From contig JAJFUS010000006.1 of assembly GCA_021372295.1 (NCBI GenBank), positions 62,001 through 126,000 of the forward strand: DNA of 64,000 nucleotides, given 5' to 3'. The position numbers were made by a program, and so were the translations under genes. Below the pieces are notes generated by a model. That model was not told where the DNA came from and did not search any database. It saw only the letters and a list, made by a program, of their open reading frames with translations. This document shows positions 18,099 through 33,231 of the stretch, one piece after another; the first letter of the stretch is position 1, and every line of letters begins with the position of its first letter. Source of the stretch: a bacterium (GTDB lineage: Bacteria; Armatimonadota; UBA5829).

Positions 18099-18119
18099 AT
18101 TATCAGGAGGATAAACACT

Positions 18120-18779
18120 ATGAGCACCAAAATCATCAAGTTTGTTTGCATTCTTATTCTGCAAAGCATGTGCCTATCTGCACATGCATCCACAACGGAC
18201 TGGCGTTGGTGGTTTTGTTCAGGTTTTCCTGAATACGGTACAGCCCTTGGGACAAGTGCCACGGCTTCGGATGGTGCGGATTCTCTGGATATAGCGCTCC
18301 CAACAGGGCGGTATCTAAATTGCGCTACATATTACGAACAGGGCGTAGACGGCTGGACTGGCAAAACAGGGTTTTACAGAACAGATGTCAGATCTCCACT
18401 TGTTGCGCAAACAGAGAACACTAAGACGTGGTTGTTTTATTTTTGGGGTGGTCCATCTCTTACAGACTCAGACATGTATCTAGCTTGGGGATATAACTCA
18501 GATTATAGGCCAGATTTTCAGAACATCGTGTACACTCTCAAGTATGTGAGGCCTGCAGTTGGCATTACCGAAGGATACGTTGATGTGGGCACAACGATTT
18601 GCTTAAATCATCATGGCCAGGGTGCCTGGAAGTTTCCCACATACACAACCACAAATGGCCTAGATGGCTATATGTTCGAGTTTACTGCAACTGTAATTCC
18701 TGAACCGGCTTCCATACTCGCGCTGCTCACTGGCTTAGCTGGAATCGGCGGGATTGCTATTAAGAAGAGGCAAGCGTGA
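18120..18779 (+). CDS. PEP-CTERM sorting-domain protein, copy 1
   Basis: A 219-residue exported protein. A signal peptide (FVCILILQSMCLSAHAS) precedes a beta-rich middle of unknown function. The C-terminus is a textbook PEP-CTERM signal: PEPASILALLTGLAGIGG plus a short helix and KKRQA. In organisms with an exosortase, such tails are cut and the protein is attached to or passed through the exopolysaccharide layer. It starts 21 nt after the beta-helix gene with AGGAGG upstream, so the two are probably co-transcribed. The next gene is a close paralogue formed by tandem duplication. No exosortase is present in the window. Confidence 0.9.
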   Translation: MSTKIIKFVCILILQSMCLSAHASTTDWRWWFCSGFPEYGTALGTSATASDGADSLDIALPTGRYLNCATYYEQGVDGWTGKTGFYRTDVRSPLVAQTENTKTWLFYFWGGPSLTDSDMYLAWGYNSDYRPDFQNIVYTLKYVRPAVGITEGYVDVGTTICLNHHGQGAWKFPTYTTTNGLDGYMFEFTATVIPEPASILALLTGLAGIGGIAIKKRQA

Positions 18780-19462
18780 TGGACGAAGATCGCGAAGACA
18801 AAATTGCAGTGATCACAAGACTATGCGTTTGCCTTTTTATTTTGCAGAGCCTGTGCTTGTCCGCGTTTGCATCTACAACAGATTGGCGTTGGCAGTTTTG
18901 TACAGTTGATCCTGGTAAAGGTGGAAGCTTTGGAACAAGTGCTACGACTTCAGATGGTGCGGATTTTCTAGATATATCACTCCCAACAGGGCGGTATCTG
19001 AATTGCGCTACATATTATGAGCAAGGTGTAGGCGGCTGGACTGCTGAAACAGGGTTTTACAGCACAGATATTAGATCTCCACTTGTTGCGCAAACAGAAA
19101 ACACTAAGACGTGGCTGTTTTATTTTTGGGGTAGTCCTTCTCTTACAAGCTCAAACATGTATCTGACTTGGGGATACTTCTCGGATAATACGCCAGATTT
19201 TCAGAACAGTGTGTACACTCTCAAGTATGTGAGACCTGCTGTTGGCATTACCGAAGGATACGTTGATGTGGGTACAACGATTTCCCTAAACTATCATAGC
19301 CAGGGTACCTGGAAGTTTCCCGCATACGCAACCACCAATGGCCTGGATGGCTATATGTTCGAACTTACTGCAACTGTAATTCCTGAACCGGCTTCCATAC
19401 TTGCGCTGCTTACTGGTTTGGCCGGAATCGGCGGGATTGCCATAAAGAGGAGACAAGCGTGA
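18776..19462 (+). CDS. PEP-CTERM sorting-domain protein, copy 2 (duplicate with chimeric 5' end)
   Basis: This is a tandem copy of the preceding gene, with nearly identical middle and tail (PEPASILALLTGLAGIGG then KRRQA). Its first codons, reading MDEDREDKIA, are not part of the ancestral gene: the same 33 bases recur at 19459-19491 as the start of the downstream small gene. The duplication junction therefore placed a foreign acidic start before the signal peptide. The frame opens at GTG 18776 or ATG 18779, overlapping the previous stop. A GTG at 18809 would instead give a normal signal peptide (MITRLCVCLFILQSLCLSAFAS) and may be the true start, although no good ribosome site precedes it. Localisation should equal that of copy 1. 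Confidence 0.85.
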   Translation: MMDEDREDKIAVITRLCVCLFILQSLCLSAFASTTDWRWQFCTVDPGKGGSFGTSATTSDGADFLDISLPTGRYLNCATYYEQGVGGWTAETGFYSTDIRSPLVAQTENTKTWLFYFWGSPSLTSSNMYLTWGYFSDNTPDFQNSVYTLKYVRPAVGITEGYVDVGTTISLNYHSQGTWKFPAYATTNGLDGYMFELTATVIPEPASILALLTGLAGIGGIAIKRRQA

Positions 19463-27476: not shown

Positions 27477-27542
27477 TCTCAGTTGTTGGGTTAGAAATTG
27501 CCGAGATCGGATATAAACATAGCGCTTGGGCGCATATTGTTT

Positions 27543-29345
27543 ATGAGACGACGATCAAAGCAAATCCCATCAGAGACTTCATATCAGCGTGCGGGAAGTT
27601 GGGCACTGACGCTCACTGTAGCGCTGTTGCCGCTCGTCTTCTGGCCCACCGCCAATAACACCAATCTCGCAAAACCGCTGCTGATTATTGCCGGGTTGCT
27701 GGTAATATGCGGCATTTTTGTCGCGAGGATCGTAGATGGCGAGCGATTGGCGCTGAAGCCGCACGCTCTCGATATATGCGTCGGTGCGTATGCGCTGGTG
27801 GTATCCGCGTCATGGATATATTCCGACTACCGACACGCCACAATCGGCGCGATCCGAATTTGTCTCACTTATACGATCTTCTACTTCGCCGCAAGACTGA
27901 TCCTCACCAACGACCGAGCGCGAGCGCGTTTGGTGTCTGCTCTGCTATGGGGATGCATCGGCGTCTCGCTTGTCGGGATATACGAGCGTTTCGGAAACCT
28001 GCCCTGGGGCGACCCGAACGCGGTCGTTTCGACGTGGTTCAACCGCACTTATCTTGCCGCGTATCTGATGACCGTGATCCCCGTGTCGATCTGGGCGATG
28101 TTGGGAAAACGCCGGGCGCTTGGACTTGTTTGCGCGGCATTGTCGATTCCGGCGCTGGTGTTTACGTCGGCGAAGATCGCCTGGCCAGGCATAATGCTAA
28201 TGATGGCGGTCGCTCTGGCAGGAGCATGGCCTATTCTAGCCGCGAAGAGAAAGAGTCAGATCGGGAAAGCGATGCTCTCGGCGGTTGTGCTTTGTGTCGC
28301 GATTCAGATTGTGGCGGGGTGGCGATTCCCGCAGAGGTCGCCCGCCCGCCTGGTTGCACAGGCATTCTCCACTCAGACCTATTCATCCAACACGGCACGC
28401 CTGGGAATTATGAAGACCGCGTTCCGTGTGGGAATGCGCCAGCCTGTGATTGGCGGGGGCGCGGGGACTTTCAGTGTATACGCGCCCGGATATGCTGGTC
28501 ACGAGTGCAGTGTCAACATTTTTGACGACAAGTCTACGCATGGGTCGGTGGTTATCGGCCACGCCCACAATGAGTTCCTGGAAGTGTTTGCCGACATGGG
28601 AATTTTGGGGCTGATTGCATTTATGTCGATGCTGGCTGCCGCAGTGTGGATGCTCAGACAACTGCTTCGGCGCCAGGATATATCGGTTGCAGACAAGAGT
28701 CTTGCGGTCGCGCTGGCGGCCGGGATTACGGGATTTTTGTCCGCGAATATGGTCGGCATATCCGCGAGAGTGCCCGGCGAGGCTGGATTTCTGTATCTGT
28801 TTCTGGCGCTGATTGGGTCAATTGACTGCATGAGTGTCATGCTAAAAGCCGAAACCGAGCCTCAATGCGATCTAAGGCCGAAAGTCCTTGTAACGGCTCT
28901 GTCCGCCGTTTTTGTGATGCTGCTCGCCATCGGGTGGTCGTCCATTATCGGGCTGCGATCGAGCGTGTATATCCAGAGGGGAGAATTGGTCCTCACAGAT
29001 GCTTACGACAGTTCCGGGGCAGCTATCGCGATAGATCAATTTCGAACCGCATGCGCATTGACCCCAAAAGACCCGCAGGCGTGGTATGAACTGGGGAACG
29101 CGCTGGCGGTATACGGCCGACATCCTCAGGCTCTGGGCGCGTATGAGATTGTGGGGAAGCTCTCTCCGGGTTACGGCCGGTTGCACTTCAACCAGGGCAC
29201 AAGCCTTTTTAACATTGGAAGATACCGCGACGCCGAGCGCGAAATGGCGTTGGCCTACAAACAGGACGGCCTTCCAGACAGCAAGGCAAGGCTGAGTTTC
29301 CTGAGAGATCTGCTCCGCTCAAAACGATATTCATACTTGCGTTGA
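27543..29345 (+). CDS. O-antigen ligase (Wzy/WaaL-like) membrane protein with C-terminal TPR
   Basis: About 600 residues with roughly a dozen membrane helices. The Wzy_C core contains TARLGIMKTAFRVGMRQPVIGGGAGTF and GHAHNEFLEVFADMGILGL; the arginine and histidine there match ligase and polymerase signatures. After the last helix, residues of about 485-590 form two or three TPR units (DPQAWYELGNALAVYGRHPQAL). Family members join or polymerise lipid-linked glycans at the outer face of the inner membrane, and the TPR form is common in EPS systems. The start is uncertain: ATG 27543 or TTG 27498, neither with a good ribosome site. The next gene is unrelated. Confidence 0.83.
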   Translation: MRRRSKQIPSETSYQRAGSWALTLTVALLPLVFWPTANNTNLAKPLLIIAGLLVICGIFVARIVDGERLALKPHALDICVGAYALVVSASWIYSDYRHATIGAIRICLTYTIFYFAARLILTNDRARARLVSALLWGCIGVSLVGIYERFGNLPWGDPNAVVSTWFNRTYLAAYLMTVIPVSIWAMLGKRRALGLVCAALSIPALVFTSAKIAWPGIMLMMAVALAGAWPILAAKRKSQIGKAMLSAVVLCVAIQIVAGWRFPQRSPARLVAQAFSTQTYSSNTARLGIMKTAFRVGMRQPVIGGGAGTFSVYAPGYAGHECSVNIFDDKSTHGSVVIGHAHNEFLEVFADMGILGLIAFMSMLAAAVWMLRQLLRRQDISVADKSLAVALAAGITGFLSANMVGISARVPGEAGFLYLFLALIGSIDCMSVMLKAETEPQCDLRPKVLVTALSAVFVMLLAIGWSSIIGLRSSVYIQRGELVLTDAYDSSGAAIAIDQFRTACALTPKDPQAWYELGNALAVYGRHPQALGAYEIVGKLSPGYGRLHFNQGTSLFNIGRYRDAEREMALAYKQDGLPDSKARLSFLRDLLRSKRYSYLR

Positions 29346-31599: not shown

Positions 31600-32373
31600 C
31601 TAACCCTTACCTATCTTCCGCTTGATAGCGCCTATCAGAGTGAGACCCAGCGAGCCGAGAAGCATCGTGGGAACCTCAGGTACTGGAGGCCCATAATTGG
31701 GAACGAAGAACATCAGATCCTGCCTGGAAGCATCATCTGCCAGGTAGTAACCGTAATTCGAACCGTAACCCGCGGTAGCATTGGCCAGGGCATCGTTATA
31801 GTAACTCTCTGCATAGGTCTCAATGCCGGTTCTTATCGAGCCGGTATAGTCACCGCTGATATTGCCCAGGGCAAACCCGCCCATGGAAAAGCTCTTGTCG
31901 ATGTTCCAACTGCTCCCGTCGGTGATGGTTTCCCACACGGCAACCTGCATCGCAGACTTCTGCTGTTTGAGCGCGGTCGAGTCGTTGGCAGAGCCTTCGT
32001 CTCTCCATTCTTGATGGTTCTGGGTCATATAGATCACTCGGTCCCACGCGGTAGAATTGACCACTGTGGTCGGCATGCCGGTTACATAGTCTGCAGTCCA
32101 GGTCGTTCCCCAGTTGATGGTGCCGTTCAGGTCGATACACAACATGTTGGTGTATGAGATTGCTTCTGTAATCGTGTCGTAGACCTGGATGTACACCGGG
32201 CCGATAGCCACACTTTTAGACTGATACTGGCTTGTCCAGATGGTGCCGTTATACGACGGGTAATACTGGCTGTTGTTGAGTAAAGTGAGCTCATAGCGCC
32301 CAGTTGCAGATGCGGCGACACTTATAGCCAGTAAAAGAGCAACCGCGAGAATTGCAAGTCTTGTTACTTTCAA
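31600..32373 (-). CDS. Secreted protein with variant PEP-CTERM tail, possible thioester domain
   Basis: A 257-residue exported protein. I chose TTG 32373: AGGAGG lies 6 nt upstream and it starts a good signal peptide (MKVTRLAILAVALLLAISVA). The mature part is Tyr/Thr rich. MLCIDLNG near residue 80 and KSAMQVAVWETITD near 140 recall the Cys...Gln/AxW pattern of thioester-forming surface domains. The spacing is plausible but the Cys-Gln bond is only a suggestion. The C-terminus, VPEVPTMLLGSLGLTLIGAI followed by KRKIGKG, is a PEP-CTERM-like sorting signal. It follows the sugar transferase gene by 48 nt, so the pair is probably co-transcribed. Confidence 0.75.
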   Translation of the reverse strand: MKVTRLAILAVALLLAISVAASATGRYELTLLNNSQYYPSYNGTIWTSQYQSKSVAIGPVYIQVYDTITEAISYTNMLCIDLNGTINWGTTWTADYVTGMPTTVVNSTAWDRVIYMTQNHQEWRDEGSANDSTALKQQKSAMQVAVWETITDGSSWNIDKSFSMGGFALGNISGDYTGSIRTGIETYAESYYNDALANATAGYGSNYGYYLADDASRQDLMFFVPNYGPPVPEVPTMLLGSLGLTLIGAIKRKIGKG

Positions 32374-32421
32374 ATTTTCCCTCCTCTTAGTCCGTAGCAA
32401 TCGTAGTGACTTGCTGCTATA

Positions 32422-33204
32422 TCAACATGCTCCGCGTTTCAATAGAACGGCGGGCACGGTCGATACCAATATCCAAAGGTCAAGTAAAATAGATCTCTGC
32501 TCGATATATTGCATGTCCATGCGGACACGCTCCTCATAAGAAGTCTCGCTGCGACCACAAGTCTGCCATAATCCCGTGATGCCGGGCGTGACGGTCTTGA
32601 ACTGCTCTACACAAGGCCCGTAGATCTCTACTTCATCATGATGAATCGGTCTCGGGCCGACGAATGTCATATTCCCCAACAGCACATTCAAGAGCTGTGG
32701 CAGCTCGTCCAGACTGGTCTTGCGCAGGAATTTGCCCAGATTGGTTATTCTTGGATCGCTCTTGAGCTTGCAGTTGACGTAATACTCGCTTTTCAGATCG
32801 TCGCTATGTTCGAGTATCTGCTCCGCCCCATCCACCATGGAACGAAACTTATACATATCGAAGCTCTTGCCGTGTTTGCCGATAACTCTTCTCTTGAAGA
32901 ATATCGGCCCCGGGCTATCCAGTCTGACCAAAGCGGCAATGGCCGCAAACAATGCGCTTGAAACAAGTAAAATGGCCGAAGCCAGCAATATATCCGTCAA
33001 TCTTTTTACTGCAAAGTAAGCCGCGCCTACACCTTGATAAATTTTTGCAAGCCTCCTGCGCCGTCTCTCAACGGCAATAACAGCGGCTATTCCCATCGGA
33101 GCAAGTATGCATGCAGACGCTTCCGGCACCGAATGCTGCGTATCCGCATACGCAACACCGGCAGCAAACAGCAGAATGAATGCCGCCAGAATCACTTTAT
33201 ACAA
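32422..33204 (-). CDS. Priming sugar transferase (WcaJ/EpsE type) with PEP-CTERM-like N-terminus
   Basis: A 260-residue protein. From about residue 65 it is a complete bacterial sugar transferase: one membrane helix, KRRVIGKHGKSFDMYKFRSM, RKTSLDELPQLLNVLLGN, FVGPRP and TPGITGLWQ. These enzymes move a sugar phosphate from a nucleotide sugar to undecaprenyl phosphate to start glycan synthesis. The first 50 residues are unusual: a signal-peptide-like segment ending AGVAYA, five polar residues, VPEASACILAPMG, a hydrophobic helix and ERRRRR. That order copies a PEP-CTERM sorting signal placed straight after a signal peptide. The normal polytopic N-terminal part of long family members is absent. 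The start is TTG 33204 or GTG 33195; G-rich bases lie just upstream. A PEP-CTERM-variant gene follows. Confidence 0.9.
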   Translation of the reverse strand: MYKVILAAFILLFAAGVAYADTQHSVPEASACILAPMGIAAVIAVERRRRRLAKIYQGVGAAYFAVKRLTDILLASAILLVSSALFAAIAALVRLDSPGPIFFKRRVIGKHGKSFDMYKFRSMVDGAEQILEHSDDLKSEYYVNCKLKSDPRITNLGKFLRKTSLDELPQLLNVLLGNMTFVGPRPIHHDEVEIYGPCVEQFKTVTPGITGLWQTCGRSETSYEERVRMDMQYIEQRSILLDLWILVSTVPAVLLKRGAC

Positions 33205-33231
33205 ACTCCACCCCCCGCACGCTAATATGTA

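Follow-up and report, generated by a model that had tools for sequence, protein, structure and literature searches.

Among the sugar transferases of family PF02397, large members carry an N-terminal multi-helix membrane region and small members start directly with a re-entrant helix. Glycosyltransferases of the XrtA/PEP-CTERM system (TIGR03013, EpsB-type) are tied to exosortase loci as separate proteins, and we know of no sorting signal on these enzymes. To our knowledge it is not settled which chemical acceptor PEP-CTERM proteins have, or why exosortase is linked to exopolysaccharide genes. The linkage itself has been recognized since 2006, when exosortase genes were connected to exopolysaccharide loci (PMC1569441). 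Almost all PEP-CTERM signals lie close to the very C-terminal end of the protein, and for the rare internal ones a lack of function was suspected because of their greater sequence variation (PMC1569441). A literature search, with most subscription journals outside its coverage, returned no paper on a PEP-CTERM signal borne by a sugar transferase.

The window, i.e. the whole 64,000-nucleotide stretch of DNA analysed, belongs to genome G000; other G-numbers denote relatives in the same phylum. On its minus strand lies a gene for a priming sugar transferase whose open reading frame, coordinates, strand and N-terminal layout were given exactly in a preliminary description. Residues 1–51 of the product read M(TTG)YKVILAAFILLFAAGVAYA-DTQHS-VPEASACILAPMGIAAVIAV-ERRRRR and are followed by the PF02397 domain. 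The features of the locus are:

33206–33216, minus strand: G-rich ribosome-binding-like element GGGGGGTGGAG, upstream of the TTG of the fused gene
32422–33204, minus strand: fused gene, 260 aa, TTG start at 33204; signal peptide, PEP-CTERM-type segment and sugar (phosphoglycosyl) transferase
33145–33204, minus strand: predicted signal peptide, residues 1–20, MYKVILAAFILLFAAGVAYA, ending A-Y-A (AGVAYA); from sequence, alignment and hydropathy
33130–33144, minus strand: polar linker DTQHS, five residues, predicted to be the entire periplasmic part ahead of the motif
33052–33129, minus strand: PEP-CTERM-type segment, residues 26–51; VPEASA, a 15-residue hydrophobic stretch and ERRRRR
32443–33006, minus strand: PF02397 sugar transferase domain, residues 67–254; SLDELPQ (D166-E167) and GPRP intact
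31600–32400, minus strand: next gene after the fused gene; exported protein with variant PEP-CTERM tail VPEVPTMLLGSLGLTLIGAIKRKIGKG (VPEVPT...KRKIGKG)

As in the WbaP/WcaJ and PglC phosphoglycosyl transferases, the catalytic domain is complete (PF02397, E=2e-60, 203.9 bits versus a cut-off of 27). Motifs SLDELPQ, GPRP and PG[IL]TG are conserved in the fused proteins, and the closest solved structures were those of WbaP (E=1.9e-44) and PglC-type (E=1.4e-28) enzymes. Unlike these enzymes, the fused protein has a signal peptide and a PEP-CTERM-type segment as its N-terminal anchor. An AlphaFold2 model of the fused protein, computed from ten sequences, was too poor for use (pLDDT 51.5). With TIGR03013 the protein shares the association of a sugar transferase with exosortase loci, but there the link is between separate proteins, and the fused protein scored 150.8 bits against a cut-off of 393.35 bits. 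With PEP-CTERM proteins (TIGR02595/PF07589) and their exosortase (EpsH/Xrt, PF09721) systems it shares the signal peptide, Pro-Glu, hydrophobic stretch and basic cluster; it differs from them in that the signal lies N-terminal to a cytosolic enzyme of ~205 residues, that A, V or T stands at the third motif position, and that its scores stay under the cut-offs. PExPT-CTERM proteins (TIGR04200, targets of XrtJ) likewise consist of a signal peptide and a sorting signal with little in between, and residues 4–51 of the fused protein span the 57-position model almost entirely, at a score that is not significant (E=0.12; 12.2 versus a cut-off of 40); in TIGR04200 proteins, however, no enzyme comes after the signal. 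Because ~205 residues of transferase follow the signal, which canonically lies within ~10 residues of the end, and because library cut-offs were not reached, the fused protein was not classed as a canonical PEP-CTERM protein, which it resembles in anatomy and, as judged from sequence, in apparent descent.

The PEP-CTERM models to which the preliminary description had pointed did not call the motif. NCBIfam searches with residues 1–60 yielded NF038129 (E=0.038) and TIGR04200 as best matches, both far under cut-off, and the fused protein was absent from the PF07589 matches in G000, of which 18 were above cut-off. A profile was built from 18 PEP-CTERM tails of stand-alone proteins in G000. On this profile the fused N-terminus reached 13.1 bits versus at most 6.3 in 2000 shuffles, and those of G004 and G002 reached 15.8 and 15.1 bits. 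When all 1186 stop-to-stop frames of the window were scanned, the fused segment ranked third (9.5 bits), surpassed only by the two genuine PEP-CTERM proteins at 18099–19459. Held-out genuine tails scored down to 7–12 bits (lowest 7.3), among them VPEASS...RRRRKI. The distant fused members G006, G011 and G022 were poorly separated from shuffles, and the case for them was therefore based on alignment and context.

In all ten fused proteins the hydrophobic stretch comprises 15 residues with a mean hydropathy of 2.0–2.6 and is followed by 4–5 basic residues, in line with the stretch of ~14 residues and the basic cluster of ~5 that mark PEP-CTERM signals. Of the near-invariant Pro-Glu-Pro of such signals, Pro-Glu is invariant in the fused proteins (10/10), and the third position is occupied by A, V or T instead of Pro. 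Since VPEAS tails are present on stand-alone proteins in G000, and in G001 directly adjoining the fused gene, loss of the third Pro is no strong objection in this clade. Together, the rank on the own-genome profile and the conserved Pro-Glu and Arg residues bear out the PEP-CTERM-like motif noted earlier at the N-terminus of the enzyme, and support its reading as a PEP-CTERM-type signal fused ahead of a priming sugar transferase.

Of 291 genomes from the phylum, ten have the fused arrangement: all five of the genus, four others of the family, and G022 from another family of the class. Most of these members are known from draft, probably metagenome-assembled, genomes. The proteins of the four other genus members are 68–84% identical to that of the window. 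Hits from a scan of genome contigs were for the most part unfused transferases, with a single fused locus among them (L056, G001 contig JAJFTD010000100.1); when ~100 loci were scanned for VPE ahead of the catalytic domain, the arrangement was seen in no unfused transferase.

Fused homologues start with a hydrophobic segment followed by small residues at the probable cut site (hydropathy and alignment). Small residues at -3/-1 recur, and the signal peptides and linkers of the ten differ in both sequence and length. P27, E28, A31, L34, P36, G38, R50 and R51 are invariant in the alignment of the ten, and V26 is nearly so (I once), giving the consensus motif [VI]PE[AVT][SAT]A and the helix core LAPxG[IL]. 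Homologues that retained the hydrophobic segments and dropped the VPE or the Arg cluster had been named as grounds for doubt; Pro-Glu and the Arg cluster are kept in 10/10. Among the five genus members, pN of the VPE-helix-Arg segment was 0.04–0.19 versus a pS of 0.62–0.95, matching the catalytic domain (pN 0.05–0.20) and lying below the juxtamembrane stretch after the Arg cluster (pN 0.15–0.41). These values indicate that motif, helix and Arg cluster are under purifying selection. The internal motif of the fused proteins thus varies less than its surroundings, in contrast to the variable internal cases of PMC1569441.

A start codon downstream of the motif had also been raised as a possible objection. 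The TTG start of the window gene is aligned with the ATG of the G002 orthologue behind a conserved G-rich element (GGGGGTGG) that precedes both, so the start is not downstream of the motif. GGGGTGG is retained ahead of the start in G000, G002, G003 and G004.

The strongest evidence for a homology in role between the VPE-helix-Arg segment and PEP-CTERM signals comes from G022. Its fused protein comprises a signal peptide, ~190 exported residues, the segment SPNIPEATAMVLGPSGLAMIVALEKHRRRYQ with an IPE motif, and the transferase; the ~190-residue passenger occupies the slot held by a short linker in the other fused proteins. Elsewhere in G022, a stand-alone frame of 245 residues shares 82% identity with the passenger and ends in SPAVPEPGTIVAAIALLAPAGITMRRRRS, a canonical PEP-CTERM tail located where the fused protein has its motif. 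Other relatives of the passenger in the phylum with a readable C-terminus nearly all have PEP-CTERM-like tails, and the G022 fused gene is flanked by PEP-CTERM genes. DNA similarity between passenger and paralogue begins right after the signal peptide and stops shortly ahead of the IPE motif; because signal peptides and tails diverge fast, the exact joints of the fusion are suggestive only. The proposal of a PEP-CTERM gene fused to the enzyme thereby gains strong independent support from a paralogue with a canonical tail. An assembly error in G022 was considered and rejected, since nine other genomes align with it across the junction.

A maximum-likelihood tree built from 59 transferase domains placed all ten fused domains in one group (support 95/95) with the unfused transferase of G009 as sister, and G022 was nested within the group (93/87). 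One transferase from a genome of the phylum grouped with a sequence from Armatimonadaceae, a hint that the phylum is Armatimonadota. A separate small PEP-CTERM ORF was sought ahead of the unfused G009 transferase and none was seen. On these sequences, the simplest reading is that the fusion arose once. The position of G022 suggests a transfer between families with later gain of the passenger; alternatively, the passenger may have been ancestral and then lost in the other fused members.

An exosortase is encoded in all ten genomes with the fusion. As it is also encoded in 14 of 18 class genomes with unfused transferases, co-occurrence was set aside as proof. In G000 the exosortase is a single gene (E=5e-63) on a different contig from the fused gene. 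It matches TIGR02602 above cut-off and no named Xrt subtype above cut-off; the locus (L177, 153–5208 of G000 contig C2) also holds a separate EpsI gene and glycosyl transferases. In G001 the exosortase and the fused gene are ~7 kb apart in one glycan cluster, and exosortase and EpsI are apparently fused there (524 aa). In G003 and G004 the distance is 24–27 kb, again within one glycan cluster, with putative chain-length and export genes whose roles were read from sequence. Genus genomes have 20–41 PEP-CTERM matches each (E up to 1). An unfused sugar transferase gene was found within 2.5 kb of the exosortase in nine class genomes (G016, G018, G019, G020, G021, G022, G023, G026 and G027), so the pairing of exosortase and transferase is general in the class. 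The co-occurrence (10/10) and the linkage in some genomes are the basis on which binding or cutting of the motif by exosortase, and a coupling of glycan initiation to sorting, are proposed. Directly after the fused gene, in 5/5 genus genomes, lies the gene corresponding to 31600–32400, whose VPEVPT...KRKIGKG tail agrees with its earlier description as a PEP-CTERM variant.

The explanation considered best, and held to be somewhat probable, is that a priming phosphoglycosyl transferase acquired an exosortase sorting signal, which it uses to anchor itself in the membrane, and that exosortase recognises this signal. Sec and signal peptidase would leave a periplasmic stub of 5–9 residues, with the PE motif lying on the periplasmic side of the inner membrane. 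The helix would run from outside to inside, and the Arg cluster would keep the transferase in the cytosol, its required workplace. Such a topology, expected from the known families, would satisfy PEP-CTERM signal and enzyme alike. Exosortase would engage the motif as on stand-alone PEP-CTERM proteins, and docking, with the stub cut or uncut, would set the glycan-starting enzyme beside the PEP-CTERM-sorting enzyme; it is therefore proposed that the start of the polymer coincides with the sorting of surface proteins. For G022 this signal would, in addition, deliver a complete passenger, and the transferase would replace the discarded tail. Weighing against this explanation are the absent third Pro, the failure of the library models, the ~205 residues behind the signal, the exosortases of unfused class genomes and, in G000, an exosortase cluster away from the contig of the fused gene. 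More tentatively, the transferase itself may be an exosortase substrate, each sorting event leaving a glycan-starting enzyme in place of the discarded tail. If so, polymer initiation and surface-protein attachment would be coupled stoichiometrically or spatially, and the slot between signal peptide and motif would accept passengers, as in G022.

A natural protein that is kept by selection across several genera and bears a sorting signal on a glycan-initiating enzyme would constitute a direct physical link between exosortase and polysaccharide systems. Its conserved motif argues against dismissing internal PEP-CTERM motifs as relics without function, and suggests that PEP-CTERM-type signals away from the C-terminus escape annotation pipelines.

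Exosortase may also cut the motif as a maturation step, by which the transferase would be freed from stub or passenger and switched on or relocated. As cutting is one form of recognition, the probabilities of the two overlap; taken by itself, cutting is possible but doubtful. The anatomy is the same as that of PEP-CTERM substrates thought to be cleaved, and an uncut G022 passenger would remain tethered to a cytosolic enzyme. Yet cutting would release no more than a few residues in nine of the ten members, and unfused relatives function without it (G009 and relatives at order level, with exosortase and unfused transferases).

The main rival to recognition by exosortase is a relic: the segment would derive from a past PEP-CTERM fusion, its present function would be limited to anchoring the protein in the membrane and setting its topology, and exosortase would not recognise it. 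Loss of the third Pro and failure of the library models would fit such an origin, as would the atypical long cytosolic extension behind the signal, given that signals of this kind were suspected to be non-functional in the founding paper (PMC1569441); anchoring alone would also preserve a hydrophobic stretch and an Arg run. It would, however, leave unexplained why Pro-Glu is invariant in 10/10 homologues when the short periplasmic stub ahead of it is otherwise variable. Moreover, constraint is stronger on the segment, which includes the LAPxG[IL] core, than on the next membrane-proximal stretch, and the G022 passenger is positioned exactly upstream of the motif. A relic anchor is accordingly rated rather unlikely. 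Chance resemblance, a wrong start codon or an assembly artefact is extremely improbable: many membrane proteins have a signal peptide with a helix and an Arg cluster behind it, and TTG is a less usual start, but the arrangement recurs in ten genomes with a homologous start codon and low pN versus high pS, chance and a downstream start are excluded by the invariant Pro-Glu and Arg residues and by a constraint like that of the catalytic domain, and the G022 passenger has a stand-alone PEP-CTERM paralogue.

Further observations were made on other genes of the window. In the protein encoded at 31600–32400, MLC[IV]DL and Q[VIL]xVWE are invariant among the five members of the genus, which is reminiscent of Cys-Gln thioester domains. 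Searches with this protein returned no PDB sequence relative, no family above cut-off and no significant PDB fold match (model pLDDT 60.8, best E=0.99), leaving the thioester idea without support. Two tandem genes for exported proteins at 18099–18776 and 18764–19459 (plus strand, stop-to-stop frames) have near-identical PEP-CTERM tails, VIPEPASILALLTGLAGIGGIAIK[KR]RQA, and are apparently the product of a recent duplication. At 27498–29345 (plus strand), a few kilobases from the fused transferase, lies a gene for an O-antigen-ligase-type (Wzy_C) membrane protein with a TPR tail.
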